This document shows positions 31,481 to 57,311 of a DNA stretch of 64,000 nucleotides, piece by piece. The stretch spans positions 62,001-126,000 of the forward strand of contig JAKVNF010000001.1 in the NCBI GenBank assembly GCA_022483465.1, in the 5' to 3' direction. This DNA comes from Lachnospiraceae bacterium. Lineage in GTDB: Bacteria; Bacillota; Clostridia; Lachnospirales; Lachnospiraceae. Every line of letters starts with the position of its first letter. The stretch's first letter is position 1. The position numbers were made by a program, and so were the translations under genes. The notes under the pieces were generated by a model. The model worked only from the letters and a program-made list of their open reading frames with translations, was not told the origin of the DNA and made no database searches.

Positions 31481-33653
31481 TTAAAGTGAAGGAGCGCCGG
31501 CATCAATTCGCAGGATCCGTTGATGCAACGAAATCACAGAGGTGTTATTGCCTCCTACAAAGCGTCGTTCGTGCCTCCCACAAATCGTCGCGCCACATTG
31601 TGAATCACGACGAAACAAAAGTTTCTCTGATCCAACCATCTCTGGAATTCCGCCATTTTCCGCCCCGCAGACCAGGCAATTACATGCAATTGCCTCCAAT
31701 CCCACGTTGGGATAGTTCTCAAAAGCGATGGATGGGATGATCACGGCATAGGCCTCACGAAGCCTCCGGATCAGCTCTTCTCTATTAACTTCCCCTTCGT
31801 AAATTGCCCCACTCTCCTTCAGCAGCCGGTAGAACCTCTCTGTTTGGTATTCTTTTTTCTTCTGGCTATCTGTGGCTTCGTTCCGCCACATCGACTTTCC
31901 TGCTCTGTCCTCATCATCCAGCTCGAGCGGTCCCACCAGATGCAGTTCCAGGTTCTGATAGTCCTGCTGCCGGTAGTTTTCCAGCAACCAAAAGACTCCC
32001 TTGCCACTGCGGATCGCTCCGCAGTAGTAAAGGAGTCTTTTCTTGCCCGGTGGGAAAGACCTAGTGCCATTTCCATTCAGCGCATTGCAAGCTCTTCGGC
32101 TATTCCAATCCTCTTCCACCTCTGCTCTCATCGCTCTGATCAACTCCCCCGCCGGACCTTCCATCGGTTCTTCCCACTCTTCCCGTTCCGCCAATAGGTT
32201 CTTCGCTATTCCAGAAGGTGGTAATACCTCCAGGTCAGTGTACCCGGTATCCAACTCTGACAATGCCTCTGACAATCCTGACCAGACCTTTTTTTCATTC
32301 GGATCCGCAATCCCGTTTCCAGATGGCTCAGGCTTTGTCTCTGCGAAGGAATCCCAATGATCTAATAGCTGCACGGCATTGGTCTCTACGGTACTGCTCT
32401 TTCCTGTCATCCCACCAGATGTCAAAGCATCGTCATCCATATCAATGTCCACCATGTTCGGGATGTGGAATACATGGGCATAGCCATGCTTTCTTGTCAG
32501 GTCCGTCAGACAGGCAGATGGAACCACCAGGAAATCGGTTGTCCTCTTTCTTGCCCGCTCCTGCCGCAGGCGGATGCGCAGTCGATAGCGCCAGTACCAA
32601 TACAGCTGAACATTATGAAATTTCTTTGCGCAGTTTAACTTTTTTCTCGGTTTATTCAATCTCTGGATTCTCCATTTTATCGTCTGATTTGCGTTTTTCT
32701 CCACTTTATATTGAAATTGTCTCTTTTCTCGGCCTTTCTATCCACTTTCCTTTATGCAGTTCACTCCTCTAACCTTTCTCCCTTTCAACTCTTCCAGTGC
32801 TCCTTCCAACCCTCGTTCATACTCTAAACATGTCCCCCATCCTCTATTTTCCTTCCTCTCTTCCTCCTCATGATTCCTTCCCATCTTCTTTTTCTCACGG
32901 CCGCTTCATGCAGTTCTCATAGCAGTGTGCAAAGCTGTTCTCATTGCAGAAGGATCCATCCGGCAGAAGGCGGGTTCCTTTGTCGCAGATGATCCGGCAG
33001 TCGTGGATGGTCTCAAAGGTCACACAGGGAATGGAAACCTGCTTTTTGACTCTCCCCAATGCTTTGCAGATGGAGGTATATCCGAAGGTGATGTTGTGGA
33101 TGTGTAAGATCAGAACCGGTGCCGCAGTTTTGGGTGCCTCTTGCTTCTCTCTGTCCGGATTTTCCTGGGAACAGTCTCCTTCCATGCTCCTTTCTCTGCT
33201 TTTCCCGCCATTTTCTCTTCTAAGGACTCCCTGATTCTGCAGGATTTTGATAATCTCCTGCTCTGTGTCGCAAATCAGTCTGGGCGAATCGACGTTCTCC
33301 AGGAGGCGCTTCTGCCGATTGGTCCAGGGCTCCATGAGGTTCACATGGTTTTCTTCCCTGGACTCCCCTTTCTGAAGCTTCGGATCAAAGGTCAGTAGAT
33401 AAGCGGTCTCCCCCTTTCGTCTTCGTCTTCGCAGTTCCATCTGTGCCTGGACCTCGGCCCCGCCTCCCTCGTACAGGGTGCTCAGAAGGATCCAGATCCG
33501 CTCTGGTGCCTCTACAGGCGAGGTAGGTACCTTTGCTGCATCTGCCAATGAGGATACTGCTGTCTTGACCCCGTCAGCACTTTCTTTCTGCTCCTGCTGG
33601 TCTTCCTCTCGATCCGGTTTGTTCTTCCCATGCAGGACTTCTTCTCCTTTCAT
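31481..33653 (-). pseudogene. GT-B glycosyltransferase, frameshifted and 3-prime truncated
   Basis: The N-terminal domain is 33653 to 32895 (WILLSTLYEGGGAEVQAQ, LILHIHNITFGYTSICKAL, TIHDCRIICD). The C-terminal domain is about 32704 to 31500 (FLVVPSACLTDL, HIPNMVDIDMDD, LLYYCGAIRSGKGVFWL, IPSIAFENYPNVGLEAIA). Between them the frame is lost and an amber TAG remains near 32725. The C-terminal frame continues upstream of that TAG (ERGLEGALEELKGRKVRG). The end of the second domain is missing next to the truncated IS1595-C. Long hydrophilic inserts (for example RRENGGKSRERSMEGD) are present in both halves. It would have added one sugar of the repeat unit. Confidence 0.7.
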
Positions 33654-33733
33654 CCGCTCCTCCATCTTTTTTCGTCAATTGCGCTGTCCCTTCCCGTTGC
33701 CGTTTCGTTTCTTCTTCGCGCTTCTTTGACTTT

Positions 33734-35767
33734 TCATTGCGTTTTCTCTTTCGACCATTCTTTTGGTAAGCATTCTTCGCATGTTCTCTGGATCCATATT
33801 GTGATACCCAGCGCCAGCAGAATGCCTCCCATCTCCACTCCAAAGTCCCTGGTCCGGTAGACCCACATGAACCAGTCCCCTTCCGCCTGCAGGGCATAGG
33901 GAAGGATAAGGAGCAGGGCGATGGTGCCGGGATCCGACAGATTCATCCCTTTCGTTCCTCCTGCCGAATCTCTCAGTACCCTTCGCAGCCCGCTCTCCAG
34001 TGCCGCTCCCATCACGTCAAGCAAGAGCAGCATTACCGCAAACACCAGGAAGATCCCGGGATAACCAAAGATCTGAGCCCCCATGGAGAACGGGGTGTCA
34101 TTGTAGTCATCCTGCTCCGGGCAAAGACCCAGGCGGGAGAGCTGATCCGGATAGGCGGTCAGCTCTTCCTGCTTTTCTCTTTTTCCGGACAGCACCGATG
34201 GTACCGACATCTCCAGTGCCTCCCGGACGACAGCAATTCCTTCCTGCAGAGCGTGTTCTGGCGGGACAGATAACATTTCCAGGATCCTGCTGCCCATCTG
34301 GTTCCGGTCATTCCTATTCTCCTCCCAACTTATTCTCTCCTCCCTCCAGATCTGCCGCTCTGCGATGGTCACGGCAAGATCCGACAGGTCATAGCGGAAG
34401 GCGTGATACTCCATCACAAAGCGGTCTGGATAGCCGGAAAGTCTCCCACTCGTCTTTTCACTGACCCCGGTGAGAAGGCACAGGACCAGCGGGGAGATGA
34501 TGAGGAGCCCTGTCAGCTCCCGCACCCGGATCCGCCCGGTCACCAGAAGCGCCAGCAGGCCGTACAGGGCAAAGCCCGCCAATGCCTGCTTGCTCCCGGT
34601 ACGCAGGGTGGTCAGGCCCTGCACCAGCCCCACGATGATAAAGGGCAGGACCGGAAGGACCGATCGGCGCAGCCGCCTGGCCTGCTCTGACTTCCGTTCC
34701 GGCTGCTGCAGGCTTTCCGGATTCCCACAGGGGCAAATCCCTTTTCCGCTCTGCTTCCCTCGTTCAGACCTTTCTCCCCTTCCCCAGGAGAGGACCAGGG
34801 ACAGGTACACCAGATCCGTCAGGCCCTCCCACACCGTGCGCATGGTCCTGCCGGTCACCATAGAGATCGGTCTTCCGGTCAGGGCGAGCGATCCCAGTCG
34901 GATCGCGGCAAAGCTGCCTGCTGCCGCAAGGCCCAGGAGAATTCTTTTCTTTTCCTCCTCCATCCCTGCGGCAGCTGCCATCCTGCCTTTGGTTTCTGCA
35001 TTTCTCGCTGCGGCAGACCCTGCTGCCTCCGCCATGTTGTCTCCCAAGATGCCGCACTCCCCCGGTAAGCGTCCTTTCCCCAGTGATGGTATCTTCGTAA
35101 GTCGGCACCCGCTTCCTGGCGCCAGCGTTTCCTCGGTCACGGATGTTATCTCTCTCCAGTGCGCTTTCCCTGCCCAGTCCGCCACATGCTGATTTTTTGC
35201 CCTCGTCCAGCGATACAGGACGCCGATTCCCAGCAGGATGGCCCCGTCCACCAAAAAGCCTCCCAGGAGCCGCTCCCGGTCATCCCGGAGGAACCCGTCA
35301 AAGAGCTGATCCACCGAGAACTTCAGTACGCTGTTCTGGTGATAGAGAAGGACCGTGTAGGCAAAGAACAGGGCCGGGGTGTGCCGGAGTGTCCAGATCC
35401 TCTCGAGAAGTGCCATCGAGAATACTGCAGTGAGGCTCTTTCCGGCGGCGTCCAAAACGAAAACCTCAAACCGCGCCCAGGGCAGATCATTCTGCTCCCA
35501 GTACCAGAAGGCAGCCAGGAGCTGGATCAGAAGAGCCAGCAGGAACTGGCTGGACCTTTTGGGGATCGGCACCTTTTTGCGTCCTCCGACTTCTCCTTCG
35601 CCGAAACCGTCAGGTCTTTGCGGTTCCGGTTTCGTATCAAGGGCCCAGCACGCCTTACATGACCGCCTTCCTTCGCGGCTTGGTTTTCTCTGTCCCCTGT
35701 CTGCCGGATCCGGTTCCCGGGCTCTTCTTCTCAGTCTCTTCACCTGTCTCGTTCTCCCTCTTCCCAC
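33734..35767 (-). CDS. Multi-pass membrane protein, probable polysaccharide polymerase (Wzy-like)
   Basis: Up to 677 residues. About 11 hydrophobic segments can be counted, beginning near residue 74 (FLLALLIQLLAAFWYW), with a large loop near residues 440-560 (SGYPDRFVMEYHAFRYDLSDL). This is the general layout of an O-antigen/capsule polymerase, but there is no diagnostic motif I can name, so the assignment rests on topology and context. The first ~70 residues are Arg/Lys/Glu/Gly-rich and may be untranslated spacer; the GTG start at 35767 is only the furthest open one. Loops between membrane segments are lengthened by purine-encoded hydrophilic tracts (ERGKQSGKGICPCGNPESLQ region). Confidence 0.6.
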   Translation of the reverse strand: MGRGRTRQVKRLRRRAREPDPADRGQRKPSREGRRSCKACWALDTKPEPQRPDGFGEGEVGGRKKVPIPKRSSQFLLALLIQLLAAFWYWEQNDLPWARFEVFVLDAAGKSLTAVFSMALLERIWTLRHTPALFFAYTVLLYHQNSVLKFSVDQLFDGFLRDDRERLLGGFLVDGAILLGIGVLYRWTRAKNQHVADWAGKAHWREITSVTEETLAPGSGCRLTKIPSLGKGRLPGECGILGDNMAEAAGSAAARNAETKGRMAAAAGMEEEKKRILLGLAAAGSFAAIRLGSLALTGRPISMVTGRTMRTVWEGLTDLVYLSLVLSWGRGERSERGKQSGKGICPCGNPESLQQPERKSEQARRLRRSVLPVLPFIIVGLVQGLTTLRTGSKQALAGFALYGLLALLVTGRIRVRELTGLLIISPLVLCLLTGVSEKTSGRLSGYPDRFVMEYHAFRYDLSDLAVTIAERQIWREERISWEENRNDRNQMGSRILEMLSVPPEHALQEGIAVVREALEMSVPSVLSGKREKQEELTAYPDQLSRLGLCPEQDDYNDTPFSMGAQIFGYPGIFLVFAVMLLLLDVMGAALESGLRRVLRDSAGGTKGMNLSDPGTIALLLILPYALQAEGDWFMWVYRTRDFGVEMGGILLALGITIWIQRTCEECLPKEWSKEKTQ

Positions 35768-35833
35768 CTTTGCTTCCTCTCACCTCCGGCGTCTGTATGC
35801 CCTCCACGTGTATCCGATGCCGACATCTGACGT

Positions 35834-36811
35834 TCACTCCTCGCCGACTTCCCGATAGATGTTCGCATAGTCTCTGGCAGCAGTCTCGGAGGAGTACCGT
35901 CTTGCATTGAGAAGCCCCCGGATCTGCAATCTCCGGTACAGGCAGGGATCAGAGAGGAGGCGCTTGATCGCCTCCCGAATCTCCCAGGTATCCGTGGGAT
36001 CCACCAACATGGCGCCTGCCCCCGCCACCTCCTGCATGGGATCCCGCCTGCTGGTGATCACCGGGATGCCCATGCTCTGGGCCTCCAGGATCGGCCGCCC
36101 AAAACCCTCGTACAGGGAGGGAAACAACAGGATCCCGCCGGAACCTGCCACCATCTGGTACAGCAGGGCCACCTCGTCCTCCCGAAGGCCCGTGCAGCAC
36201 TTGTACCCCGGCGTCAGGCAGGATAAGAGGAGCCGATCCGCATCATCCGGTCTTCCCAGCACCAGGAGCCGGCAGGGAAGGCCCTCCAGAGCCTCCGCGA
36301 TCCGGGTCAGGTTCTTGTTGGGGGCGGTGCCCACCGCCAGCACGTACCTGGGCCAGGTGGTTTTCTTCTGGCTGTCCACAGAAGGGGCAAACGGATCTCC
36401 GCCCTCTTGGTGTCTTGCCGGCTGGCTGCCGTCTAAGCCTCCCTGCGGCATTTTTCCAAAGTCCGTATGGATCCTCTGTCCGCAAGGCTGCATTGCGATC
36501 AGGTCATCCCAATCCGTGCGGATGGGAGAAGAGAGAAGCGCCGGTGCAGGCTGTTCTCTTCTCCCTGCCCTGCGCATCCTCCGTCCCTTCCGGTTGCCAG
36601 CTGTCCGGCAGACGCTCCGCTTGTCGGACCATGAACCGGTACCTGTTCCTGCTCCCTCCGCAGGGACATCGAATGCCGCCGCCCTGCTTTGGGCGATGGT
36701 CGTTTGGATCCCACGTCGCACGGTCCGGATCCCCGGATTCCATGGGATCTCCTGATCCCATGACATCCTCTGTCCTGCCTGCATCGCTCCCATCATGACG
36801 CTCCCTCTCAT
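35834..36811 (-). CDS. Glycosyltransferase, C-terminal GT-B domain only
   Basis: 325 residues. The last ~180 form the donor-binding domain of a GT4-type enzyme: YVLAVGTAPNKNLTRIAEAL, CRLLVLGRPDDADR, ILLFPSLYEGFGRPILEAQS (the Glu-x7-Glu signature) and GIPVITSRRDPMQEVAG. The first ~145 residues are low-complexity and charged. No acceptor domain is present; a matching N-terminal domain is encoded just upstream at 37080-38177. Start ATG 36811 has GGAAAAG 5 bases upstream, so independent translation is plausible. The two may form a split two-subunit enzyme or be a broken single gene. Confidence 0.7.
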   Translation of the reverse strand: MRGSVMMGAMQAGQRMSWDQEIPWNPGIRTVRRGIQTTIAQSRAAAFDVPAEGAGTGTGSWSDKRSVCRTAGNRKGRRMRRAGRREQPAPALLSSPIRTDWDDLIAMQPCGQRIHTDFGKMPQGGLDGSQPARHQEGGDPFAPSVDSQKKTTWPRYVLAVGTAPNKNLTRIAEALEGLPCRLLVLGRPDDADRLLLSCLTPGYKCCTGLREDEVALLYQMVAGSGGILLFPSLYEGFGRPILEAQSMGIPVITSRRDPMQEVAGAGAMLVDPTDTWEIREAIKRLLSDPCLYRRLQIRGLLNARRYSSETAARDYANIYREVGEE

Positions 36812-37079
36812 TGCTCTTTTCCTTTCCTTTCTCTGTTGTTTTTATGTTGTGCCGGCTTCCCCGCTGCCGGTCTTGTCAGGTTGATTTGCGTTTTCCCTGT
36901 CTTTCTTCGCAGCGCCTCGCTGCGGTCTTCTGTCCCGGACCATCGTGTCTGGCTTTCCTCACCTTGCCTCCCTCATCAGGTCATCACCTTCTTTCCTCCC
37001 TGCGCGTTTGCAGTCCCTGCCGGAATGCTGCCAACACAAGGCAGCGCTTCCCTGGGCTTCTCACCCCAGGGTTTCTGGT
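36812..37079 (-). other. Purine-rich spacer between the two halves of a glycosyltransferase
   Basis: 268 bases, strongly G/A-rich on the minus strand with several stop codons in the upstream gene frame (a TAG, then TGATGA) and a TAA in the downstream frame. No promoter or terminator was seen. The composition matches the low-complexity inserts inside neighbouring genes. Confidence 0.6.
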
Positions 37080-38177
37080 CTAGCTTTGTTTCTTCCGCTT
37101 CCCGAACGGATCTCCCCAGAAGCCGGCATACATCTTCGGGATCCAGGAGAGCGCATCGAGCTTCTCCTCCCGCATGGCCTCATAGGCTGCCCCGACGGTG
37201 TTGGGGATCACACAGGTCTTCTTCCGGGGAAGCTCCGGAAACCGGTCCCAGAGCTCCCACTCCACCGTGTCGGAGACGCAGATGATCTTCCGGCACCTGG
37301 CAAAGGGGATCCGGTGCCAGAACCAGTAGCTCAGAAGGTACCGGGCCTGCCTCCCAGGATCGGGCAGGTGTCTTCTTCCCCGGAATTTCCGGCCGGCACC
37401 TGGTCGTTCTCCCTGCGCGCTTTCCTGATCTTGGCCCTGCTTCGGATCCACCCAAAAGGTCTCCAACAGGGGATCACCTCCCACGACTTCTCCCCGCTCC
37501 CGGAACCGGTCCAGGTAGACGAAGTCGTGCAGGGTCAGGATCGTGCGGTCCCTGGGCAGGAAGCAGGCAAGAAAGTACACCTCCCCCGTGATGTGGATCA
37601 CCTCCGCCGGGTGCTGTCGAAGCTCTGCCCGGACAAAGCGCACATTCCTCCACAGGGCGCGCGGGCTCCGGTAATCGGCCTCCGGGAGGCAGACCTTCCG
37701 GATCTCGATTTCGGATGGCGGCTTTGTCTGGCTGTCCGCCTCCCCTGCTGCAGTCAAATCTTGGATGCATTCGGCCGGCTCCCCCGGATTTCCCTGCAGC
37801 CAGGGGTCCAGGGCCGCAAAGAGCTCCTCGATGCTGTGCTCACACCGCTTTGCTGACCGATAGATCTGGAGCACATGGATCACATGGCCTGTGTCTTTGT
37901 GGTCTTTCTCCTTTCTCACCTTCCCCTCGCAGGGCGGCTCTCCGCACGCTGCTGCTGTCGCTGTCCTGCTGCCTTCGGGCGCCTCTTCCCGCTGCGTCCC
38001 CCGGCCTGTCTCCTGCGCTTTCAATCTCCCCGGCAGGGCCTCTTGGGAAAGCGCGCTTTGCTTTGTCTCCTTCCTCCCCCGCTTCTTTTTGATCATCTTC
38101 CTCCCCTGTTCCTCTCCTTGGTCCTGATCTTCGGTTCTCGTGTGCTGTCCCTCCTGTTTATCCTTCCTCCGTGTCAT
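37080..38177 (-). CDS. Glycosyltransferase, N-terminal GT-B domain only
   Basis: 365 residues from the ATG at 38177 (MTRRKDKQEG), chosen because it follows the previous stop by 20 bases and has AGAGG 8 bases upstream. The frame is open further, into the preceding gene. After ~110 charged residues the acceptor domain reads VIHVLQIYRSAKRCEHSIEE, EVIHITGEVYFLACFLPRDR, TILTLHDFVYLDRFRERGE and KIICVSDTVEWELWDRFPEL, ending at TCVIPNTVGAAYEA. That last motif is normally the bridge to the second GT-B domain, which is instead encoded by the next gene (35834-36811). A ~45-residue charged insert (WVDPKQGQDQESAQGERPG) sits between two core strands. Confidence 0.7.
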   Translation of the reverse strand: MTRRKDKQEGQHTRTEDQDQGEEQGRKMIKKKRGRKETKQSALSQEALPGRLKAQETGRGTQREEAPEGSRTATAAACGEPPCEGKVRKEKDHKDTGHVIHVLQIYRSAKRCEHSIEELFAALDPWLQGNPGEPAECIQDLTAAGEADSQTKPPSEIEIRKVCLPEADYRSPRALWRNVRFVRAELRQHPAEVIHITGEVYFLACFLPRDRTILTLHDFVYLDRFRERGEVVGGDPLLETFWVDPKQGQDQESAQGERPGAGRKFRGRRHLPDPGRQARYLLSYWFWHRIPFARCRKIICVSDTVEWELWDRFPELPRKKTCVIPNTVGAAYEAMREEKLDALSWIPKMYAGFWGDPFGKRKKQS

Positions 38178-38196
38178 GCGGATGCCTCTTCCCTCT

Positions 38197-40383
38197 TCAT
38201 CCGCTCCTCCTGCTGCGGTGCTCTGTCTTGGATTCTTCCGTCTCCCTTCCACCTCCTGTCTTAGGGTCTGCGTCTTGTCTTTGCTGCCCCTGCCGGGCAG
38301 GGATCTCCTCCCCGCCGGCACAGGCTCTCATGCAGTCCAGGTACTGCCTGGCAATGCGGCACCGGTCAAAGGGGTGATCCCGAGGCAGTTCCTGCTGTCC
38401 CCTGCACGCTCTGTCCGCTCCCTGCTGGTTCTCTGGTTTTTCTCCCTCCTCCCTACTGCCTCGATCAGGCGGTGCCGTCTCCTGCCCTTTTCTCACCTGC
38501 GCTTTTTTTCTCTGCTCCCGCTCTGCCATGGCAAAGAGCCATGCGCCCGGATCTTTGGGATCTTGGACATAGATGGCCTGATCCCCTGCTGCCTCGGGGA
38601 TGGCTGCGGCGGGGGAGGCGATGACGTCTGCCCCGAGGAGCGAAGCCTCCGCGCAGGGCATCCCAAAGCCCTCATAGAGACTGGGAAAGAGAAAGGCCCT
38701 GCAGGATCGAATCAGGTCATTGCGCTCCGCCTCCGGGATTCTCCCGGTCAGGGTGATGCAGGATGTCAGGTGCCTCTCTCGGATCTTCTCCTCCAGCGCC
38801 CTCTGACAGCGCCCCGTGGGATCCTGGGGGATCCCGGCGATGACAAGGCGGCAGGGAAGGTTTCGAAGGGTTTCTTCCCGCTTTCCTTCCTCTGACCCTT
38901 CTCCCTTCCCCTGTCCCGTTCCGGTTTCCGGCTCCCTGGCCTGCTCCCAGTCATGGAGGCGGGCAAAGACCGCCAGGAGGGTGTCCAGGTTTTTGTGGGG
39001 CAGGAGCGAGGAGACGGTGAGGTAATAGCCTCCAGGCGCCAGGTGGTACTTCCGCAAGGGATCGGAACCGGGATCGGTGCGCGCAGCGCCTTCCGGTGCT
39101 TCTCCCCGCATGGGACGTTGGTTTTCCCCTTGACCGGCGGGTTTCTTTATCCCTACCGGTACCCACGGCGGTTCCGCAGCCTCCTTCCCTGCATCCTCCC
39201 CATGCAGCACGATCGGGTTGTAGATCCGGACCAGGCGGTCCCTGGTCCCTGGGGCGAAGCAGAGGATCCGGTCCCTGGTAAAGTCCGAGACCGCGACGAT
39301 CCGGTCCGCGCGGCGGAAGGTGTTTCGAAGAAGGATCCGCTTTCCGAGTCGAGCCCTCCTCGAGAAGTTCTCCGGCAGATCCAGCGGCTGCAGGTCATGG
39401 ATCACGACGACAGACCGAATCCCGGGGCAGGGGCCAAAAAAGGCGTGGTAGCCACAGGGCTCCAGGAGGACCACCGGGGATACGGCGCGCTTTTCCCGCT
39501 TGGACGGCACGCAGCTTGTTTTCTCCCCTCCTTTCGGGTGCGCTTCCGGCTCTGCCCTGGCTGCGCCCTGCGCCGCAAAGGCTGCAAGCTCCCTACCAAT
39601 CCAGCGTCGCGTTCTCTGCAGGGTCCGGAGACGCTCGCCGGCCGAGGCAAAGCGCCCGGGGACGGTGCGCAGAAAGAACCTGCGATCTTCCTCCCCGAAA
39701 TGCCGGAAGGAGTCCCGGTTGTCCCGGGTCACCAGGAGGAGACACCGAAAGTCTTCCGGGGAAGTTTCCTTCTTCTTGATTTCTCCCGAGGCGCTGCCCG
39801 GTTCCTGTCCTCCCTCCTCTGCCGCCTGTCCCTGCGGTGCCGGCAGCGCCTGTATTCCCTCCAGGAGGTTGCGGACACAGGCCTCGATGCCGCCGATCTC
39901 GCCCGGCCGGCACCAGGTCAGGTCCACCGCGAAGGAAAATGCCTCCTCTGCCGCATCCATTTCGTTTTCGTTTTTCTCCGTTCCCGCCAGCGCCTGTTCT
40001 AGTCCGGCAGTCCGCTCCGCAGAGTCCGCTTTTGCCCCTCCCTGCGGCATCCGCCTCTCCCCTTTCCGGCTTCCGGGATTTCTCCCCCGGTGCCGGAGGA
40101 TCTCCATGACGTGTCGGTTCTGTTCTGACCGATGTGCCCTGATCTCGTTCCTCCCTTCTTTTGTCTTCCTGGCGCTATCCCGCTGCATGCGTCTTCTCCC
40201 CCTGCTGCCCGCCCGGTGTGATCGGCTGCCCTTCTCTCCTGCCAGGCAGGATTCCGTTCTGGCCGCTTTGGCTGTCCGATTCCGACACGCTGCGTTCTCC
40301 CTGCTCCCTGCCGGATTTCCTCCTGCCTCCGGTGATTCCGGGCTGCAAGTGCCCCCTGCCTGAATTCGCGCGCAGAAGGTCAT
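38197..40383 (-). CDS. GT4-family glycosyltransferase with charged inserts
   Basis: Up to 728 residues; the folded part starts near residue 165 (AFSFAVDLTWCRPGEIGGIE). GT-B landmarks: GIEACVRNLLEG, VVVIHDLQPLDLPENF, ADRIVAVSDFTRDRIL, LTVSSLLPHKNLDTLL, RAFLFPSLYEGFGMPCAEAS and ADVIASPAAAIPEAAG. A typical member has about 370 residues. The excess is low-complexity sequence: N-terminal ~160, the domain linker (GEDAGKEAAEPPWVPVG through GAARTDPGSD), a loop at EPETGTGQGKGEGSEEGKRE, and ~100 at the C-terminus. The true start is unclear because purine-rich DNA stays open in this frame. Both domains are complete, unlike in the two neighbouring split enzymes. Confidence 0.8.
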   Translation of the reverse strand: MTFCARIQAGGTCSPESPEAGGNPAGSRENAACRNRTAKAARTESCLAGEKGSRSHRAGSRGRRRMQRDSARKTKEGRNEIRAHRSEQNRHVMEILRHRGRNPGSRKGERRMPQGGAKADSAERTAGLEQALAGTEKNENEMDAAEEAFSFAVDLTWCRPGEIGGIEACVRNLLEGIQALPAPQGQAAEEGGQEPGSASGEIKKKETSPEDFRCLLLVTRDNRDSFRHFGEEDRRFFLRTVPGRFASAGERLRTLQRTRRWIGRELAAFAAQGAARAEPEAHPKGGEKTSCVPSKREKRAVSPVVLLEPCGYHAFFGPCPGIRSVVVIHDLQPLDLPENFSRRARLGKRILLRNTFRRADRIVAVSDFTRDRILCFAPGTRDRLVRIYNPIVLHGEDAGKEAAEPPWVPVGIKKPAGQGENQRPMRGEAPEGAARTDPGSDPLRKYHLAPGGYYLTVSSLLPHKNLDTLLAVFARLHDWEQAREPETGTGQGKGEGSEEGKREETLRNLPCRLVIAGIPQDPTGRCQRALEEKIRERHLTSCITLTGRIPEAERNDLIRSCRAFLFPSLYEGFGMPCAEASLLGADVIASPAAAIPEAAGDQAIYVQDPKDPGAWLFAMAEREQRKKAQVRKGQETAPPDRGSREEGEKPENQQGADRACRGQQELPRDHPFDRCRIARQYLDCMRACAGGEEIPARQGQQRQDADPKTGGGRETEESKTEHRSRRSG

Positions 40384-40488
40384 TTTCCGCAGGTTTTGTC
40401 CTGTGGGGTCATTTCCTATCCGTTTCTGCGCTCTGCGGCAAATCTGCGTAGGATCTGGCTCCCCGTGATCTTCTCGTCTCCTCCTTCC

Positions 40489-46329: not shown

Positions 46330-46394
46330 CAAAGTTATCCCTAAAGCTCACAGCTTTCTCTGTTGGGGATACCATGACAAACTTCAGCATAGAC

Positions 46395-49140: not shown

Positions 49141-49183
49141 AAGGATAGTTGCCGGCCCCCTACGGGAACCGGCAACTATCCTT
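49141..49183 (-). terminator. Strong terminator of the upstream polysaccharide unit
   Basis: AAGGATAGTTGCCGG pairs perfectly with CCGGCAACTATCCTT (15 bp) and is followed by TTTGTTTT on the minus strand. The reading frame of the GT2 gene runs into the stem and ends inside its loop. Confidence 0.85.
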
Positions 49184-51049
49184 CACAATTTGTTCTTTCC
49201 TCCCTCCCGCTGTTCTCTCCTGCTGCGCCTGCTGGCGCTGTTCCATCCGTTCAAATCCCCTGTTCTCCTCTTCTCCGGCTGCTGTTTTCCTCTCGTCTCC
49301 TGTTTCTGTCCCCGGCGCCGGCCCGGGCTGTCTCCTTCCTTCCTGTTGTGCGGCTTTTGCATCGCTGTCACCAGTTTCTCCCGCCGCCCCGCCCTTCCTC
49401 CCTTCCCTTCCGGGGCGGCTCCTTTTTTGGTCCCTTTTGCTTGCCGTACTTTTTCCTGCTTCTTCCCCTGAAGTGCACCTTACGTCCGGTCCGGCGGGTC
49501 CGCTGTGTCCTTCGGACCCGCTGATGACGGTTTCTTTGTGTGTTCGTCTGTATCGGAATGCATGTCGTTTGGTTGGTTGTCTTTTTGTTTTGGTGTCATC
49601 CTTCCGGCCCCCGACGGGGTGCACGCTTCCCGCCCTGCCGCGCGGGGTGCTTCCCATCCCTCCCTTCGTAGCCCCGGCACGGCCTCCTCTTTCCGCCAGT
49701 TTGATGTGTCTTCGTCTTTTCTGTCTGCCTCCTTTCCCCGCCCGCCCGCCAAACATCTCTTGTGACTGCCTTCTCCTCCTGGCCTCCCGGAATTCCAGGA
49801 GCCTCGGGAAGGCGAGAAGGAGTGCGGTGGCGGCAAGGAGCCGAACGTCCCGGCACCGGTCACGAACATGCTCTCTGCCCTTCCTCGTTCCGCCCGGCAG
49901 ATCCCGCAGGGCACCTCCTGTCAGCTGCCGGGTCTCCTGCCAAATGGCCTGCTTCCGGATCTTTTGCTGTGCGCGCTCCCTGTGATTGGGATCCTCCCGG
50001 TTTTGCCCTGCCGGGCCCTGCCAGTTCCCGCACCGGTACCGGACGGTTTCCCGACGCTCTTTTGTATCCCGGGCGAGGATTGCCAGCAGAGCTGCCCGCC
50101 TTCTCTTTGCCGGAAGGCGCTCCGTTTCATACCGAAGGAAGGGGCGGTGGATCTCTGCCGCTTCCCGGGAGAGGTCTTCCAGGTAGCGTTTGGTTTCCTG
50201 TTCGTTTTCCATCTCCCTTGCGGGGCCGCCCCAGCGGTCTGCCATGCTCTTCCTGCTGTGGATCCGGTAGAGGGTCGTCTCCTCGTTTCCCATCCAGAGG
50301 GAGCCCCGGAGGGAGAGGAAGGTGACAAGGACCCAGTCCCCGAACCAGTGGTGCTGGAGGCGCTCCGGGATGTCCCGCAGGTCTTTTGTCCGCACGAGGA
50401 AGCTGGAGAGCTGGGTTCCCAGCGCCTCCCAGGTCTCCAGGACCTCCCGCTGGGAGAGCCTTCGATACCGGATCCCGAAGCTTGCCTGGCTGTGCAGCGG
50501 GGCCCTTTGGGAGATCCCAAAGGATTCCTCCCTGCCCCCGCGGCCTTTCGGGATACTGGGTTTTTCGGCACGCTCCTGCCCCGCCTGCAGGACGCGGACC
50601 CGGCTGCAGACAAGGACCGCGTCCCCATGCGCTGCCATCCACCCAACCTGCTGCCGGAGCTTATCCTTCCGGATCCATGCGTCATCCCCCTCGCAAAATG
50701 CCACCCATGGACTTCGCACCAGGGGAAGGAGGATCTTCGTGGTGATCTTCCTCCCGGCCTCGTACTGGTTGTCCCGCTCCCGGATCAGGACGATGCGTCC
50801 TGGATACCTCCTCTGCAGTTTTTCACAGAGGTCCCCGGTGCGGTCCGTGGAGGCATCGTCGTGGAGGAGGATCGCAGCGGGAAAGGGTGCATCCTGCGAA
50901 AGGATCCCCTCCACCGCTTCCTCGATGGTGTCCTCCTGGTTGTGGGCGGTCACAAGGACCGTGACCAGGGCCCTTCGAAGGATGGGCTCCGGGTCCTCTG
51001 GCAGGATCACCGCGCCCGCGGGGAGGGAACTTCTCCCGGCGCCCTCCAT
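49160..51049 (-). CDS. GT2-family glycosyltransferase with long charged tail
   Basis: Up to 629 residues. GT2 (GT-A fold) core in the first ~330: VTVLVTAHNQEDTIEEAVEG, AILLHDDASTDRTGD (nucleotide-binding Asp), WVAFCEGDDAWIRKDKL (metal-binding Asp pair) and HWFGDWVLVTFLSL. The remaining ~300 residues are Arg/Gly/Glu/Lys-rich, with one short hydrophobic patch (LLAATALLLAF), and end inside the terminator stem. The tail is probably the translated form of a purine-rich spacer. The ATG overlaps the stop of the preceding small gene (TGATG), which implies coupling. It adds one sugar to the lipid-linked repeat unit. Confidence 0.8.
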   Translation of the reverse strand: MEGAGRSSLPAGAVILPEDPEPILRRALVTVLVTAHNQEDTIEEAVEGILSQDAPFPAAILLHDDASTDRTGDLCEKLQRRYPGRIVLIRERDNQYEAGRKITTKILLPLVRSPWVAFCEGDDAWIRKDKLRQQVGWMAAHGDAVLVCSRVRVLQAGQERAEKPSIPKGRGGREESFGISQRAPLHSQASFGIRYRRLSQREVLETWEALGTQLSSFLVRTKDLRDIPERLQHHWFGDWVLVTFLSLRGSLWMGNEETTLYRIHSRKSMADRWGGPAREMENEQETKRYLEDLSREAAEIHRPFLRYETERLPAKRRRAALLAILARDTKERRETVRYRCGNWQGPAGQNREDPNHRERAQQKIRKQAIWQETRQLTGGALRDLPGGTRKGREHVRDRCRDVRLLAATALLLAFPRLLEFREARRRRQSQEMFGGRAGKGGRQKRRRHIKLAERGGRAGATKGGMGSTPRGRAGSVHPVGGRKDDTKTKRQPTKRHAFRYRRTHKETVISGSEGHSGPAGPDVRCTSGEEAGKSTASKRDQKRSRPGREGRKGGAAGETGDSDAKAAQQEGRRQPGPAPGTETGDERKTAAGEEENRGFERMEQRQQAQQERTAGGRKEQIVKDSCRFP

Positions 51050-51420: not shown

Positions 51421-51465
51421 CCTGCTTCCTCCTTCTGTTTTCCCTTTCTGATTTTCCCCGGCTGC

Positions 51466-53391
51466 TCACCCCGCGGCGCCCCGCAAAAACCGAAGCGTCT
51501 CCTCCCTGCCGGCGATCCCATAGCCGAGGCGCAGGTAGAGGCGAAGCGCCTGGGAATTGGTTCTCGATGCGGTAAAGCACATCCTCTCCAGGCCCTGCTT
51601 CCTTGCCAGGTCCTCGCAGATCCGGATCATCCGCTCCCCGATGTGGCAGTTCCGGTACGCGGGGAGGACCGCAAGGAAGCTGATCACCGCACTCTTTCCA
51701 TCCGCTCCGCCGTTGACATAGCCCCAGGCGAAGGAAACCGGGGTTCCCCCGGTGGGGAACTTCCCAGCGGGAAGTTTTTCTGCCGTCTGCCCTGCCTCCC
51801 CGGCCACGCAGGCCAGGGCAAAGCCCTGGGCGGCGATCTTGTCCGCAAGGTGCCGGAGCGATATGGACCTTTCCGAGAGGGGCGGTGTCACGAGCTCCCC
51901 GAAGCTGCCAAGGAGCCTCTCGATCTTGCCCGGATCATGGACAAAGCGGAAGGTAAGACTCCCCGCGGGGAGGGTGCGGACCACGGTGACGACCTTCCGG
52001 CAGGCGATGCCGGGGCGCAGGGCAAGGCGGGGATCTGTGGGACCCTCTCCCCCTGCCGGCAGCGCATCGCCTGCGTCCGACGATGGTGCCGCCTCCTGCA
52101 GGTGGAAGGACGGCGTCCGCTCCTTCGTCACCTCGGTGCGCACTGGTGGCGCAATGCACGTGCGTGCTCCCGGAGCGCTTTCTTCGCTCTTCTTCCTTCC
52201 CGCCCGCCAGTCCAGGACCCACTCCAGGAGCGCCGCGGGGAGGTCGCACCCCGCAGCGAAGCTGAAGGGAAAGCCGCCCCCGAAGCGGGGGTTGACATCG
52301 AGGACGCAGGGCGTTCTCCCATCTGTCCCCACGATGACGTCCACATCCAGGAGGACCCTTGGGTGAAACAGGGCGGCGAGCTTCTCCCCAAGATCCAGGA
52401 GGGGCGGGGCGTCTCTCCCGTCCAGGGTCACCGCCTCCATGGTCTCCCCGCCCGCCATGCGGACCTTTCTTCGGATCAGGGTGGTCTGGTACGTTCCCTC
52501 CAGGTCACAGATGACATCCAGGCCGTACTCCCCGGAAAGAAGCGCACCGGGGGCCGGCGTCCTGTCTCCCGCCCCTTTGGTCTCGATCTTCTGCTGGATG
52601 AGAAGCTTTGGATCCCCGTCTCCGGTCCAGATCTTGGCTTCGTCTGCTGCCTCCCGCTGGGCCCTTGCAATCAGGACCGGGAGTTCCTCCCCCGCTGTCA
52701 CCTCATAGGCTGCCAGGGACCCGTTGCCGTGGGCGGGCTTGATGATGAGGGGAAAGGTGAGGGTCCCCTCCGAAAGGAGCCGCTCCGCCTCCTCGAGGCT
52801 CCCCGCCGTCACCGGCACTGGGATCCCGTGGTCACGAAGGTAGGCCATGCAGGCCGCCTTGTCCTCGCAGCGGTCCGCGCTTTCCTGGTCCGGGGCAAGG
52901 AGGCAGGTCCCCTGCGCGGCAAAGAGGTCCCGGTACCGGGAGAGGACCCACACGTCCAGGTCGATGAGGGGGATCAGAAGGTCAATCCGGTGCGCCCTGC
53001 AGAAGGCAAGGAGAAAGGAGACATACCGCCCCTCCGGGACGCGCTCCCGATTCTCCCCTCCCCCGGTGCGCTCCGGCCGTGTCACCTGTTCCGCAGGGCC
53101 CAGGATGGGCGGGAGCGCGACCGGGACGATGGCAGCCTCCCCGGCCCCGATCCTGCCGGTGCAGTCCCCGGCGTAGATCACGCCGGAAAGGTTCTCCTTT
53201 GACATTGCCCGGGCAAAGTAGTCCGCCAGGTAGGCGCGCTTTCCGAAGGAGGTGAACAGGAGGTTCACGGTGCGGTCTTTTCTTCCCGGTGCGCTTCTGC
53301 CTTCGCTCTTCTTTGCCCCGGGCAGGGCGCCCCGCGTGTTCTCCCGACATGCCCCGGCGCCCTGTTGATAACCATCATTGGTATCGATCAT
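51466..53391 (-). CDS. ATP-grasp ligase fused to GNAT acetyltransferase
   Basis: 641 residues from ATG 53391 (MIDTNDGYQQ) with AAAGGGG upstream; the frame is open 52 codons further. After a charged leader the ATP-grasp part begins at VNLLFTSFGKRAYLADYF and contains TFPLIIKPAHGNGS (ATP loop), AKIWTGDGDPKLLIQQ and CVLDVNPRFGGGFP (metal-binding Asn/Asp), like PylC- or carbamoyl-phosphate-synthase-type ligases. A GNAT domain fills the last ~170 residues (KSAVISFLAVLPAYRNCHIG acetyl-CoA site, NSQALRLYLRLGYG). The join (residues ~380-460) is low-complexity. The fusion probably joins an amino-acid or amine to a sugar or carboxylate and acetylates it, decorating the polymer; that is inference. Confidence 0.8.
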   Translation of the reverse strand: MIDTNDGYQQGAGACRENTRGALPGAKKSEGRSAPGRKDRTVNLLFTSFGKRAYLADYFARAMSKENLSGVIYAGDCTGRIGAGEAAIVPVALPPILGPAEQVTRPERTGGGENRERVPEGRYVSFLLAFCRAHRIDLLIPLIDLDVWVLSRYRDLFAAQGTCLLAPDQESADRCEDKAACMAYLRDHGIPVPVTAGSLEEAERLLSEGTLTFPLIIKPAHGNGSLAAYEVTAGEELPVLIARAQREAADEAKIWTGDGDPKLLIQQKIETKGAGDRTPAPGALLSGEYGLDVICDLEGTYQTTLIRRKVRMAGGETMEAVTLDGRDAPPLLDLGEKLAALFHPRVLLDVDVIVGTDGRTPCVLDVNPRFGGGFPFSFAAGCDLPAALLEWVLDWRAGRKKSEESAPGARTCIAPPVRTEVTKERTPSFHLQEAAPSSDAGDALPAGGEGPTDPRLALRPGIACRKVVTVVRTLPAGSLTFRFVHDPGKIERLLGSFGELVTPPLSERSISLRHLADKIAAQGFALACVAGEAGQTAEKLPAGKFPTGGTPVSFAWGYVNGGADGKSAVISFLAVLPAYRNCHIGERMIRICEDLARKQGLERMCFTASRTNSQALRLYLRLGYGIAGREETLRFLRGAAG

Positions 53392-53565
53392 CTGTATTTC
53401 CCCTTTCCCCTGTTGGATGGTGCATTGCTTTTGTCTGTCCGCCGATGTCCCGGCGCTTTGTTTTCCCGCATCCGGCATTTCACCGGCGTATGGTTTCTTG
53501 TGTGGTTTTTGGTCCCTGTCTGGCCCCCGCTCCTTTCTGTGCGGCACGCGCCCCCCAGCATTCCC

Positions 53566-55152
53566 TCAGATCCTGCCCCGCAGAAAAAAGTACAGGGGAA
53601 GGCCCACGATGGCTGCTGTGGAGAGGGCCGGCAGGAGGGCTTTGCACTCCTCCCAGGGCCGTACCCCCAGCGCCCGCCGCAGGGGGTGGAGATTGATGGG
53701 GAGGGCAAGGAGGGAGGATAGCAGGTCCGTCCCCGCAAGGACCAGGGCAGGACTTGCGCCCCCAAAGAGCGCGGGGTGCCGCCCCTGCAGAAAGGCGGGA
53801 AGAAGGAGCAGGAGGGACAGGAGCTTCTTTCTTCCCTCGAGCCGGACCAGGGCTCCGCTCCTGCCGCACCCCCGAAGGGCTGCGACGTGCAGGGCGTGGA
53901 CGGGATAGAGGGCGCAGGCAAGGCACTCCAGCGCGCAGATCCCAGAAAGGCCCTGCCAGGCCTGCCCCAGAAGAAGGGGGAGGAGCTTCCCCGCACTGGC
54001 GGCCAGAAGCCCCGCCGCGGGAAAGACCGCAAGGCCGGTCCTTTGGAGGGCCGCAAGAAAGGCCTCCCTTTGGGCTTCCGCACCCTTGTCAGGCTCCTCC
54101 AGGGGGAGCCGGGCGCTCTCTCTGCCGCGCCCCCGCCCCGCAAAGAGGGGCAGGAGCACAAAGCCGAGGGACGCGGCGAGGTCCTCCGCCAATACCTGCG
54201 GAATCTGCCGCCCCCTGGTGTAGAAGGCAAGGTCTGTCCCGGTGCCGAGAAGACCGAGAAGGAGCGTGCGCAGGTTCCCGGCGGCAAGGTCCAACAGGGC
54301 CGCCGCAAGAAGGTTCCTCCCGTCCCGGGCAAGAGCCCGCAGGGCGCCGGGGCGAAAGCGCCGCCTCCTGCAGGTCGAAAGGGGCCGCCAGCCCGTAAAG
54401 AGGGGACCGGAAATGGCATCCAGGAAGTTTCGAAGCAGGGTCAGGAGAAGAAGTACCGCAAGCCCTTCACGGCCTGCAGGCCGGCAGAGGACTGCCGCCA
54501 GGAGAGCCGCCCCCGGTGCCAGCAGGGCCCCGGGGAGGGCGGACCACAGGTACCTCCGGTACAGGGCGTCCGGGTCCGGGAAGGTTTCTCCCCGCCAGGA
54601 TTCCGGTCTGGTATCCCGCCTGCCCCCTGCGCTGCCCGCTTTGGCTCCCTCGCCACGCTTCTCCGCTGCTTCTGCGTTCCCCACTGTTTCCGCCCCTGCC
54701 CCGGCGCGGAGGGCAAGCTGCACGTGGACTGCAGTGCTCTTCGTCCAGGGGGTGGCAAGGAGGGACAGACAGAGGAGGCGCAGGAAGGTCGCCTCCCCCG
54801 GGCGGCCGAAAATTTGTGCGAGGACCGGGGCAAGAACAAACAGACCGCCAAAGAGGACCAGGGAGGTGAAAAGGCTCACCCGGAACACGGCGCGCTCCAG
54901 GTCCTCGCAGGGCGAAGCGGTCTTTTCGGGAGGGCCCGGCGCCGTTTCCCTTCCTTTCGGTCTTGGCCCCTCCTGCCAGCCCGCCAGGGCATCAAAAAGG
55001 CCCAGCGTCCCCGCAAGATCCGGGAGGGCAAGGAGGGCCATCCAGAAGGCGAGCTCCCCAAAGGCCGCGGGCGCCAGAAGCCGCCCAAGGAGGAGGTTTG
55101 CCGCGGCGCTCCCGCCACGTGCCGCAAGGCGAAGGGCCAGGAGGGCGCGCAC
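53566..55152 (-). CDS. Polysaccharide flippase (Wzx/MATE-like membrane protein)
   Basis: About 528 residues from a GTG at 55152, which gives the usual distance to the first helix. The frame is open upstream through the whole preceding gene, which is misleading. About 12 hydrophobic segments: NLLLGRLLAPAAFGELAFWM, SLFTSLVLFGGLFVLAPVL, LLWSALPGA-type stretches and a C-terminal FFLRGRI. Leu/Ala/Gly-rich helices alternate with short basic loops, and there is a charged insert (EAAEKRGEGAKAGSAGGRR). It should flip lipid-linked repeat units across the membrane for polymerisation. It lies 69 bases after the aminotransferase stop and 175 bases before the ATP-grasp start. Confidence 0.75.
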   Translation of the reverse strand: MRALLALRLAARGGSAAANLLLGRLLAPAAFGELAFWMALLALPDLAGTLGLFDALAGWQEGPRPKGRETAPGPPEKTASPCEDLERAVFRVSLFTSLVLFGGLFVLAPVLAQIFGRPGEATFLRLLCLSLLATPWTKSTAVHVQLALRAGAGAETVGNAEAAEKRGEGAKAGSAGGRRDTRPESWRGETFPDPDALYRRYLWSALPGALLAPGAALLAAVLCRPAGREGLAVLLLLTLLRNFLDAISGPLFTGWRPLSTCRRRRFRPGALRALARDGRNLLAAALLDLAAGNLRTLLLGLLGTGTDLAFYTRGRQIPQVLAEDLAASLGFVLLPLFAGRGRGRESARLPLEEPDKGAEAQREAFLAALQRTGLAVFPAAGLLAASAGKLLPLLLGQAWQGLSGICALECLACALYPVHALHVAALRGCGRSGALVRLEGRKKLLSLLLLLPAFLQGRHPALFGGASPALVLAGTDLLSSLLALPINLHPLRRALGVRPWEECKALLPALSTAAIVGLPLYFFLRGRI

Positions 55153-55220
55153 CCGCCCCGCCGGTGCGCAGGGTTTTCGCGTCGCTCCCCCTGCGGCGTC
55201 CCGGCTTATGCTCCGCGGGA

Positions 55221-56597
55221 TCAGGCTCCCGCCTTTCCGGCCAGCGCCTGCCGGATCGCCCGGCAGATCCGGTCCACCTCCTCGGGGCGAAGATCGTTGA
55301 AAAAGGGAAGGCAGAGGACCTCCCGGGACGCGGCAAGGGCGACAGGGGTCTCGGCAAGAAGCTGCGCCTTGCGCGCATCTTTCTCTTCGGAGAGCGGCGG
55401 GTACCCGGCAAGTTCCCGGATCACGCTGCTCTCGCTGACAAGGGGATAGAAATACCGCCTCGTTCGAATCCCCTCTGCCCGGAGGGCCTCCCGGAGTTCG
55501 TCCCGGGTGATGGGAGACTTCTCTGTCACAAACACCGGGAAGTAGGCGAAGCTGCTCTCCACGTCCTCCTGCAGGGCCCGGCACCGGATCCCCGGAAGGC
55601 CCGCAAGATTTCGTCGATACCTCGCGTCCAGGGCCCTTCGCTTTTTCCTTCCCGCCTCGAAGTGATCCAGGTTGACAAGGCCGACGGCGGCCTCGAACTC
55701 GTTCATCTTGGCGTTGCAGCCAAGGACCTCCACCGGGGCGCCCTCTTTCTTCGAAAGGCCGAAGTTTGCCATCTGCCGCAGGACTTCCATCCTGCCCCCG
55801 TCCCCGGAAAAGAGGCACCCACCTTCCACCGTGTGGAAGGTCTTGGTGGCGTGGGTGGAGATCGCACAGATGTCCCCAAAGGAGAGGACGCTCCTGCCCC
55901 CTCTCCGCTCCCCAAAGGCGTGGGCCGCGTCGTAGAGGACAAAGAGGTTTCGCTCCCCTGCGATCTTCCCGATTGCCTCCGTGTCGCAGACCGTCCCGTA
56001 GACGTGCACCGGGAGGATCCCGGCGGTATTCGGAGTGCACTTTTCCCGGATGGACGCAGGGGAGAGGGTACATGTCACAGGGTCGATGTCCGCAAAGACC
56101 GGGCGAAACCCGGCCCGCAGGATCGCCTCCACCGTGGAGGGGAAGGTAAAGGGGGTGGTGATCACCTCCCTCCGCGCACTCTCCCAGGGGACCCGGCTTT
56201 CCGCCCCGGTGCCTGCTCCCAAACGAAAAAAGCTGAGGGCCAGGTACAAGGCCATGTCCCCGCTCGATACGGGAAGGACCTGCGGGATGCCCGTGAAGGC
56301 CCGCAGACGCCCCGCAAGGCGCTCCTCCATGGGGCCAAAGTTCGAGTACTGCCCGGAGGCGATCACCGAGATGAGGGGCGCAAGGTACGCCTCCCGGTAG
56401 GAGGCATCCGGGGCAAAGACCGGGATCCCTGCCCTTGCGCCTCCCACCTCTCTGGGAAAGGCCTCTCTCGCCGTCCTCCTCCCGCGGCGGGGCCGTTCCC
56501 CCGAACGCTTTTCCCGGACCCCTGTCCGCGCGCTTTTTCTCCTTCTTTCCGCCTGCTCCCCGGTCTCCTCCCCCGTTTTGTTCCATTCCTTGGTCAT
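55221..56597 (-). CDS. DegT/DnrJ/EryC1-family sugar aminotransferase
   Basis: 458 residues, well-supported ATG (GGGGAG 7 bases upstream). The first ~55 residues are charged; the enzyme starts at IPVFAPDASYREAYLAPLIS. Landmarks: QVLPVSSGDMALYLALS, ITTPFTFPSTVEAILRAGF, ILPVHVYGTVCD, VLYDAAHAFGERRGG (PLP-binding Asp) and ISTHATKTFHTVEGG with the Schiff-base Lys. It transfers an amino group to a nucleotide-linked keto-sugar, so an amino sugar is expected in the repeat unit. An insert of about 8 residues (GAGTGAESRVPWESARRE) follows the first core helix. Confidence 0.92.
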   Translation of the reverse strand: MTKEWNKTGEETGEQAERRRKSARTGVREKRSGERPRRGRRTAREAFPREVGGARAGIPVFAPDASYREAYLAPLISVIASGQYSNFGPMEERLAGRLRAFTGIPQVLPVSSGDMALYLALSFFRLGAGTGAESRVPWESARREVITTPFTFPSTVEAILRAGFRPVFADIDPVTCTLSPASIREKCTPNTAGILPVHVYGTVCDTEAIGKIAGERNLFVLYDAAHAFGERRGGRSVLSFGDICAISTHATKTFHTVEGGCLFSGDGGRMEVLRQMANFGLSKKEGAPVEVLGCNAKMNEFEAAVGLVNLDHFEAGRKKRRALDARYRRNLAGLPGIRCRALQEDVESSFAYFPVFVTEKSPITRDELREALRAEGIRTRRYFYPLVSESSVIRELAGYPPLSEEKDARKAQLLAETPVALAASREVLCLPFFNDLRPEEVDRICRAIRQALAGKAGA

Positions 56598-56735
56598 CTG
56601 GTTCTCCCCTTTCCCTTTGATTTTGTGTTGTCTTCCCGCCCGAGACCTTTGGGTCTGTCCCGGGCTCTTGCCGCAAGCCTTTTCCTTCGCAACAGGGTCT
56701 CCTCTCTGATCAGAATCCCGTCACCGCACCCGGAC

Positions 56736-57311
56736 TCAAAAATCCAGGTGGTCTGCCTCAAAGGCCTCCACCTTGGCCTGGAGTTTCTCCAGCTCCCAGA
56801 GACACTTGGTCATTTCCGCGGCGTGGTTTGCGAGCTCTTTCTCGATCTCCCGGATCTGCCGCAGGTTGCGGCGGTGCGTCTCGAGCGCGCGGAGGGCCTT
56901 CCGAAACTGCAGGGGAAGATCCTCCAGGGCCTGGCGGCTGTCCGTGAAGTAGTAGGGCTCCACGTGAAAGACATTCGCCAGGGCATCCAGGTGGATGGTC
57001 CGCTCGGAGAGGACGTTGTTCTTTTCCTCCTCCCAGCGCTGCACCGTGCGAAGATCCACACCGAGCCGGTCTGCCAGGCGGCACCTGGTGTAGCCGACCT
57101 TTTTGCGCAGGTACTCCACGCGGTTTTCGCGAAGCTCTTTGCCGATCATCTGCACCTGTCTGCTGCGGGCGGGGCGCGCTTTGGCAACAGGGCACCTCTC
57201 CTCTTCCCCGCCCTGTGCCGGGCTCCCATCCTGCGCCGGGATCTCGCTCTGCAGCGGGGTGCTGCTCTGCTCCGGGGTCTCGTTCAGCTTCTCGTCAATA
57301 CTCTTTTTCAT
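56736..57311 (-). CDS. XRE-type HTH regulator with coiled-coil tail, first gene of the polysaccharide unit
   Basis: 191 residues from ATG 57311 (MKKSIDEKLN), supported by GGGAGAG 6 bases upstream. An upstream in-frame ATG at 57332 lies too close to the inserted MITE to be the original. Residues ~55-125 form the helix-turn-helix (TRCRLADRLGVDLRTVQRWE) and residues ~130-185 a Leu/Glu/Lys coiled coil (LREIEKELANHAAEM-like). Residues 1-45 are Pro/Gln/Ser/Glu-rich. It heads the aminotransferase-flippase-GT2 unit and is a candidate to control it, binding the inverted repeat at 57887-57925. A MITE now separates it from that promoter. Confidence 0.8.
   Translation of the reverse strand: MKKSIDEKLNETPEQSSTPLQSEIPAQDGSPAQGGEEERCPVAKARPARSRQVQMIGKELRENRVEYLRKKVGYTRCRLADRLGVDLRTVQRWEEEKNNVLSERTIHLDALANVFHVEPYYFTDSRQALEDLPLQFRKALRALETHRRNLRQIREIEKELANHAAEMTKCLWELEKLQAKVEAFEADHLDF

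Follow-up and report, generated by a model that had tools for sequence, protein, structure and literature searches.

Thymine-poor DNA swells the genes and junctions of a putative surface-polysaccharide operon in a Lachnospiraceae bacterium

Why are most enzymes of one polysaccharide locus longer than their relatives, and what is the DNA that makes them so? The question is raised by a 64,000-nt stretch from a Lachnospiraceae bacterium (assembly GCA_022483465.1, contig JAKVNF010000001.1), called the window here, which covers positions 62,001-126,000 of one contig in a genome of 4.3 Mb in four contigs. Between 31.5 and 57 kb its minus strand carries, judged from sequence, a putative Wzx/Wzz-type surface-polysaccharide operon with three GT4 glycosyltransferase genes, two of them split, and eight further genes. 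A first-pass annotation had described nearly every enzyme of this locus as oversized through purine-rich tracts, and had proposed active expansion or selection for disordered charged linkers. The local swelling is real and its make-up is kept in two species; it is neither a repeat expansion nor a genome-wide skew.

The sizes first quoted for the SDR (425 amino acids, aa), one GT4 (728 aa) and the GT2 (629 aa) are correct, and the Wzz-like protein has 1009 aa when read from its TTG. Three homologues of the SDR measure 278, 289 and 305 aa, two fused homologues of the 693-aa ATP-grasp/GNAT protein 488 and 489 aa, and three homologues of the GT4 377-380 aa, a fourth (273 aa) probably being cut by its locus edge. 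The DegT aminotransferase has 458 aa versus 367-393 aa in 11 of 13 homologues, the remaining two (426 and 562 aa) belonging to the congeners G443 and G451, and the GT2 exceeds the 291-348 aa found in 12 of 15 homologues, the rest having 395, 461 and 479 aa. Of 14 other genomes with an open frame corresponding to a 485-aa glycosyltransferase-like protein, 12 have one of 310-357 aa; in the remaining two (584 and 625 aa) the insert site is still compact and the surplus length lies elsewhere. Elsewhere in the same genome, open frames measure 375-514 aa for 14 of 15 GT4 matches and 799 aa for the other, and at least eight GT4 matches above 550 aa are found among the genus matches listed. The enzymes thus exceed most of their homologues from other genomes in length, but the GT4 and GT2 open reading frame (ORF) lengths are partly run-on.

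Borders between cores and inserts were placed by eye from conserved motifs, so that lengths are approximate. The pooled cores (7386 nt) contained A 0.17, C 0.32, G 0.33 and T 0.18, with third-position A at 0.07, versus A 0.26, C 0.27, G 0.38 and T 0.09, with third-position A at 0.23, in inserts and termini (5460 nt, including those of the Wzz-like protein). As the first-pass annotation had stated, purines are enriched on the coding strand of the excess (pooled purine fraction R 0.64 versus 0.50 in the cores); a sharper signature than purine richness is a sense strand short of T with A and G raised. Its statement that intergenic spacers match the inserts in composition was also borne out: seven locus spacers had T 0.02-0.12 and R 0.68-0.84, a set that omits 46333-46577 and 48952-49159 (edges of an insertion sequence, IS, with T 0.28) and 53548-53700 (inside the flippase ORF). 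Twenty stretches of the same genome supplied 67 control spacers, in which mean T was 0.236 and mean R 0.519, and the lowest T was 0.06. This lowest-T control spacer (L018, 18004-18084, 81 nt, R 0.73) lies about 2 kb to the left of the window.

Runs of at least 40 nt without T numbered 32 in the 25.8-kb locus (24.8 per 20 kb) versus 127 in 795 kb elsewhere. Such tracts are about eight times denser at the locus, the 40 control stretches averaging 3.2 per 20 kb with a maximum of 11; ten of these stretches had been picked for glycosyltransferases, DegT relatives or polysaccharide kinase-type genes, and the one with 11 tracts contains low-complexity surface-type proteins. A surface-type protein of 1369 aa with a very long Ser-Glu-Ser-Ala repeat is encoded at 15396-19505 of stretch L032. 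Purine skew did not prove to be genome-wide, since 486 ORFs of the same genome, chosen by codon-position filters, and the 67 spacers each had a mean R of 0.52. A foreign origin of the cores is unsupported, their third-position make-up being equal to that of other GT loci of the genome; codon use differed between cores and these loci in a G-test (p 3e-6).

The excess DNA is a mixture of two classes, in-frame inserts in six enzymes and long junctions and termini. The DegT/DnrJ/EryC1 aminotransferase (55221..56597, minus strand like the other operon genes; PF01041, 3e-82) has an N-terminal extension of about 57 aa (56427-56597) and a 13-aa insert (56172-56210), both being query-only segments relative to its homologues. 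Inserts are located at 53029-53100 and 52030-52191 in the ATP-grasp/GNAT protein (51466..53547), which also has an N-terminal extension, and a small one at 50465-50578 in the GT2 (49160..51049; PF00535, 2e-16), whose core reaches to about aa 330. The SDR, of the NAD-dependent epimerase family (41943..43220; PF01370, 1.8e-13), carries an insert of about 108 aa (42321-42644), and the 485-aa protein (40489..41946; core about aa 112-458), presumably CgeB/DUF3880-like although Pfam returned no match, carries one at 41083-41148. Five are found in the 728-aa GT4 (38197..40383; PF13439/PF00534), which ends in a charged tail: 39742-39837, 39475-39558, 39055-39198, 38854-38937 and 38377-38517.

Eleven internal inserts between conserved core segments are in frame, hydrophilic and poor in hydrophobic residues. 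Together they contained no stop in frame versus 6 and 3 in the other frames, which partly follows from picking segments inside ORFs, and had a net charge of -0.01 in frame versus +0.25 and +0.14, which does not. They show codon-position structure (p 3.6e-5) with relaxed synonymous codon choice (GAA 0.47 versus 0.17, ACA 0.30 versus 0.07). The Wzz-like protein (43303..46332; no Pfam match) has coding-like inserts at 44989-45894 and 44242-44670 and a charged C-terminal tail. Its excess conforms to the original description only in part: purine richness is mild (R 0.56-0.58), and codon-position structure marks the two inserts as ordinary coding DNA (p 1e-23). It weakly matches a 523-aa ORF at 12700-14271 (22% over 121 aa, E 4.6e-6).

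Of nine junctions measured from core to core, eight are 303-841 nt long with T 0.05-0.13, and the ninth, between DegT and flippase, is 86 nt; lengths taken in this way include any translated N- and C-terminal tails. The class is exemplified by 39940..40572 (minus strand; 633 nt core to core, T 0.08), and further T-poor junctions lie at 53275-53580, 50975-51474, 43221-43563, 41614-42020, 37887-38328, 36353-37193 and 35552-35854. Codon-position structure was not significant (chi-square) over codons 1-140 of the GT4 ORF (p 0.93), codons 1-110 of the 485-aa ORF (p 0.36) or the GT2 tail (49160-50059, the last 300-350 codons or so; p 0.07), and these three T-poor terminal pieces therefore resemble spacer in which the scarcity of T keeps a frame open. 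The placement of the excess in loops, linkers and termini stands for the internal inserts, but these three termini look like run-on that the ORF caller counted as protein.

Matches to the SDR at E up to 1e-15 were found in three of 62 genomes of the genus, the present one included. In the congener G457, the sole sister species with the locus, a 3.5-kb contig holds the end of a Wzz gene, the SDR and a glycosyltransferase-like gene in the same order as here; the SDR of G468 is compact. The G457 inserts occupy the same sites (T 0.03-0.08, R 0.68-0.78), two spacers have T 0.03-0.06, and inserts and spacers together have R 0.68-0.82. Its contig contains 6 T-free tracts versus 29 in 158.8 kb of other stretches, in which some positions read N. 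Three G457 inserts likewise had 0 stops in frame versus 5 and 1, and a charge of +0.04 versus +0.21 and +0.13. Four pairs of inserts or spacers from the two species aligned no better than the best of 100 shuffles, whereas the cores are 47-75% identical, differing at 0.40-0.53 of third and 0.16-0.41 of first and second positions. Since four-fold sites differ at 0.42-0.56, neutral divergence alone could have erased similarity between the inserts. In the gene of the 485-aa protein, one insert has 22 versus 60 aa and another about 0 versus 44 aa between the two species, and such differences would fit continuing gain and loss. Inserts of constant length and sequence were therefore not found in the sister species; rather, composition and position seem to be kept while sequence and length turn over.

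Homologues outside the genus are without these inserts. The 485-aa protein was matched (E up to 1e-10) in 14 of 396 other genomes searched in the family, and in seven of these, all of other genera, both halves were matched with 0-11 residues at the insert site. In G080 (L206) the homologue of the 485-aa protein has 331 aa, and an SDR of 278 aa is encoded 5 nt away. The SDR-GT and DegT/ATP-grasp/GT2 sets recur in relatives.

Tentatively, and with a probability of roughly 0.38, we favour long-term insertion of filler that is tolerated by Rho or RNases, combined with a filter for hydrophilic loops, as the explanation of the locus. Work on B. subtilis (PMC13323073) reports that Rho acts on RNA in which C is abundant compared with G and T is high as well; sense strands rich in purines are reported to evade it. 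In one lineage of the genus, an ancestral, compact operon would have gained DNA over a long period, both in frame in enzyme loops and linkers and in gene junctions. Inside genes, the DNA that survives would be hydrophilic, roughly charge-neutral and without in-frame stops; in junctions its sense strand would contain little U and, compared with G, little C. The most likely reason would be that, even in a long operon, untranslated RNA of this kind triggers neither termination by Rho nor cleavage by endonucleases. A Rho gene is present, TIGR00767 scoring above its cut-off in all five genomes searched, including this one. Sense-strand windows of 150 nt with C-G above 0.05, a measure that differs from the published Rho score, made up 5.4% and 14.2% of two parts of the locus versus 19.3% of the 486 ORFs. 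RNase avoidance would predict much the same composition, and we infer that T-poverty stems from selection to escape Rho or RNases. In five species of the genus (L180-L184) Rho has a hydrophilic low-complexity stretch of variable length before its RNA-binding part, with open frames of 583-699 aa on a model of 415 positions.

It is distinctly improbable that the filler has a function of its own, that is, that T-free sense DNA is kept by selection in junctions and loops as RNA-level insulation, protecting a long operon against termination or cleavage. Make-up rather than sequence would then be inherited, T-free DNA would be without start or stop codons, and the enzymes would tolerate or use the charged loops.

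Several observations weigh against Rho- or RNase-tolerant filler. The purine bias of the genome as a whole is weak (R 0.52), and core third positions show no purine enrichment (R3 0.46, near that of other GT loci). Windows with C excess are equally few elsewhere in the window (6.6% at 1.6-6.5 kb, 4.5% at rpoD), and those that combine C excess with T above 0.2 amount to 2.0% and 6.7% of the two locus parts versus 6.5% in the 486 ORFs. Other GT operons of the genome have R of about 0.52 and no swelling, so that Rho avoidance fails to explain why this operon was affected. Third-position T in the internal inserts (0.09, expected 0.056) is not below expectation, which implies that T-poverty inside genes is mainly a matter of amino-acid choice; that of the junctions belongs more to the nucleotide level. 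Some of the junction DNA may be coding, given that the nine junctions together contain 12 stops in the frame of the downstream gene versus 25 and 19 in the other frames. Furthermore, G451 and G443 have apparent loop inserts, recognized by eye, in DegT, an SDR of another kind, an acyltransferase and GT4 (for SDR, DegT and GT4: L170 6576-7892 and 14744-16432; L172 2128-3525 and 9914-11194). Because their T is 0.10-0.25, insertion into such enzymes appears to be wider than its T-poor form. Confinement to one operon, as originally claimed, holds within the 18% of the genome that was sampled; the apparent inserts of the two congeners lie in polysaccharide enzymes and lack the strong T-depletion.

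Selection at the protein level is a rather unlikely alternative. It holds that polyampholyte disordered loops are useful, for instance by keeping the pathway enzymes together at the membrane, with nucleotide composition as a by-product. The near-neutral charge, reading frame and scarcity of hydrophobic residues of the internal inserts agree with it, as do the insert sites common to G457, the amino-acid origin of T-poverty within genes, and the two Wzz inserts, which are full coding sequence with a net charge per residue of -0.13 and -0.03. In their codon choice, however, the inserts are relaxed and not tuned, and the spacers and the stop-containing stretch between the two domains of the second GT4 are similar in composition. 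The notion of charged linkers is therefore upheld for the internal inserts, which are hydrophilic and in frame, but a purely protein-level cause is not. A single-sequence AlphaFold2 model of the SDR was uninformative (mean predicted local distance difference test score, pLDDT, 35).

Doubtful, too, is that the operon as a whole is decaying, with relaxed selection and drifting insertions of which only the stop-free, non-sticky ones stay visible in ORFs. Decay is suggested by the relaxed codon bias of the inserts, the long run-on tail of the GT2, the frame of the G457 SDR, which is broken close to the N-terminus, and the two split GT4 genes. The second GT4 (35834..38321) is split between its N domain (37080-38321, PF13439) and C domain (35834-36811, PF00534) by an 841-nt T-poor stretch (36353-37193) with stops in all frames. 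The third (31481..33665) is apparently interrupted by stops within the N domain (32895-33665, recognized by eye without a Pfam match, and 31481-32704, PF00534); it adjoins at its 3' end a transposase-like ORF (30895-31506; PF12762, 26.6 bits, just below the cut-off) and is probably a dead gene. The 3' end of the operon, where these two genes lie, is likely to be decaying. Against decay throughout, the cores keep their native third-position make-up, third positions diverge more than first and second ones, and T-poor junctions are not predicted, given a mean T of 0.24 in the 67 other spacers.

Recent active expansion, by repeat slippage or by insertion of mobile or templated elements, is very unlikely, even though lengths differ between this genome and G457. 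Tandem Repeats Finder detected no more than five tiny arrays across the 64 kb, three within the locus, and a search for direct repeats within 400 nt, limited to that range, gave just six two-copy families of 18-25 nt. These results rule out tandem or local direct repeats as the source, and leave the simple-repeat form of the proposed active expansion unsupported. At gathering thresholds Rfam found only a group II intron in the window, outside the locus. The hexamer TGCCGG is over-represented here (z 9.2 versus a shuffle maximum of 6.4) and weak or absent in G457. A generating k-mer motif was rejected, TGCCGG and CCGGCA being mutual reverse complements and most top words being weak in G457; we judge the top hexamers to be ordinary words of the genome. 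Extra ribosome-binding sites in the junctions were also discarded: Shine-Dalgarno (SD) sequences followed by ATG numbered 24 versus 9.5 expected, but the control SD plus GAT 31 versus 9.1, and G457 showed no excess.

GC and AT skew of the plus strand are mostly negative along the contig and genes lie mostly on the minus strand, so that the locus is probably on the leading strand, and purine asymmetry linked to replication with PolC has reportedly been published for Firmicutes. A drift of unconstrained leading-strand DNA to A and G is nevertheless highly improbable, and disfavoured as sole cause, since the asymmetry is absent from core third positions and the 67 other spacers, which are imperfect neutral controls because of codon selection and regulatory sites, and since skew is weaker in other sampled contig stretches, although a few of them come near in AT skew.

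Among the remaining genes of the locus, DegT opens at an SD-like ATG, and its three named relatives are metagenome-assembled genomes of Lachnospiraceae and Butyrivibrio. The Wzx-type flippase (Polysacc_synt_3, 53566..55300, upper border approximate; PF13440, 2.8e-19) lies in a mechanical 1036-aa ORF reaching 56676, which takes in an out-of-frame overlap with DegT. A 677-aa membrane protein without a Pfam match (33734..35767) is, from its position, a possible Wzy-type polymerase. Inside the polysaccharide locus lies an IS91-type insertion (about 46.3-49.2 kb) of normal base composition, with a Y2 transposase at 47467-48951 on the plus strand and a 283-aa ORF without a Pfam match within 46578-48951. 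Just upstream of the operon, beside rpoD, the group II intron covers 59519-61361 (RF02005 at 61128-61361, RF00029 at 59519-59619) and includes a reverse transcriptase ORF (59619-60899). ORFs 8555-9973 and 27954-29384 encode nearly identical proteins and ORFs 15929-16957 and 21194-22222 are equal in length, which suggests repeated insertion elements around the operon.

Filler tolerance, protein benefit and decay may act together. If the composition is selected, the locus would separate RNA-level from protein-level constraint, translated loops and junctions being affected alike and compact homologues serving as controls; purine bias would then extend from codon choice to DNA gain and help to explain oversized bacterial enzymes. 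If the operon is decaying, long ORFs in T-poor DNA would still overstate protein length. Literature searches, with supplements and subscription papers outside their scope, found no earlier description of such swelling.

Lineage-specific disordered insertions in enzymes are hydrophilic, in-frame loops at tolerant positions whose sequence changes fast and whose position changes slowly. The locus resembles them in its loop features and differs in that most enzymes of one operon are affected together with the junctions. It shares its enzyme families with Wzx/Wzz-dependent polysaccharide operons of Lachnospiraceae-type bacteria, whose representatives outside the genus are without inserts. As in the PolC replication asymmetry, purines lie on the probable leading strand, but the bias of the locus is stronger than that of the rest of the sampled contig. 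With the purine bias of bacteria with runaway transcription, attributed to Rho avoidance in PMC13323073, it has in common an A+G-rich, low-T sense strand and the presence of rho. That bias, as described there, is genome-wide and shapes codon usage, whereas here core third positions are not purine-rich and the bias is local, extreme and contained in added junction and loop DNA.

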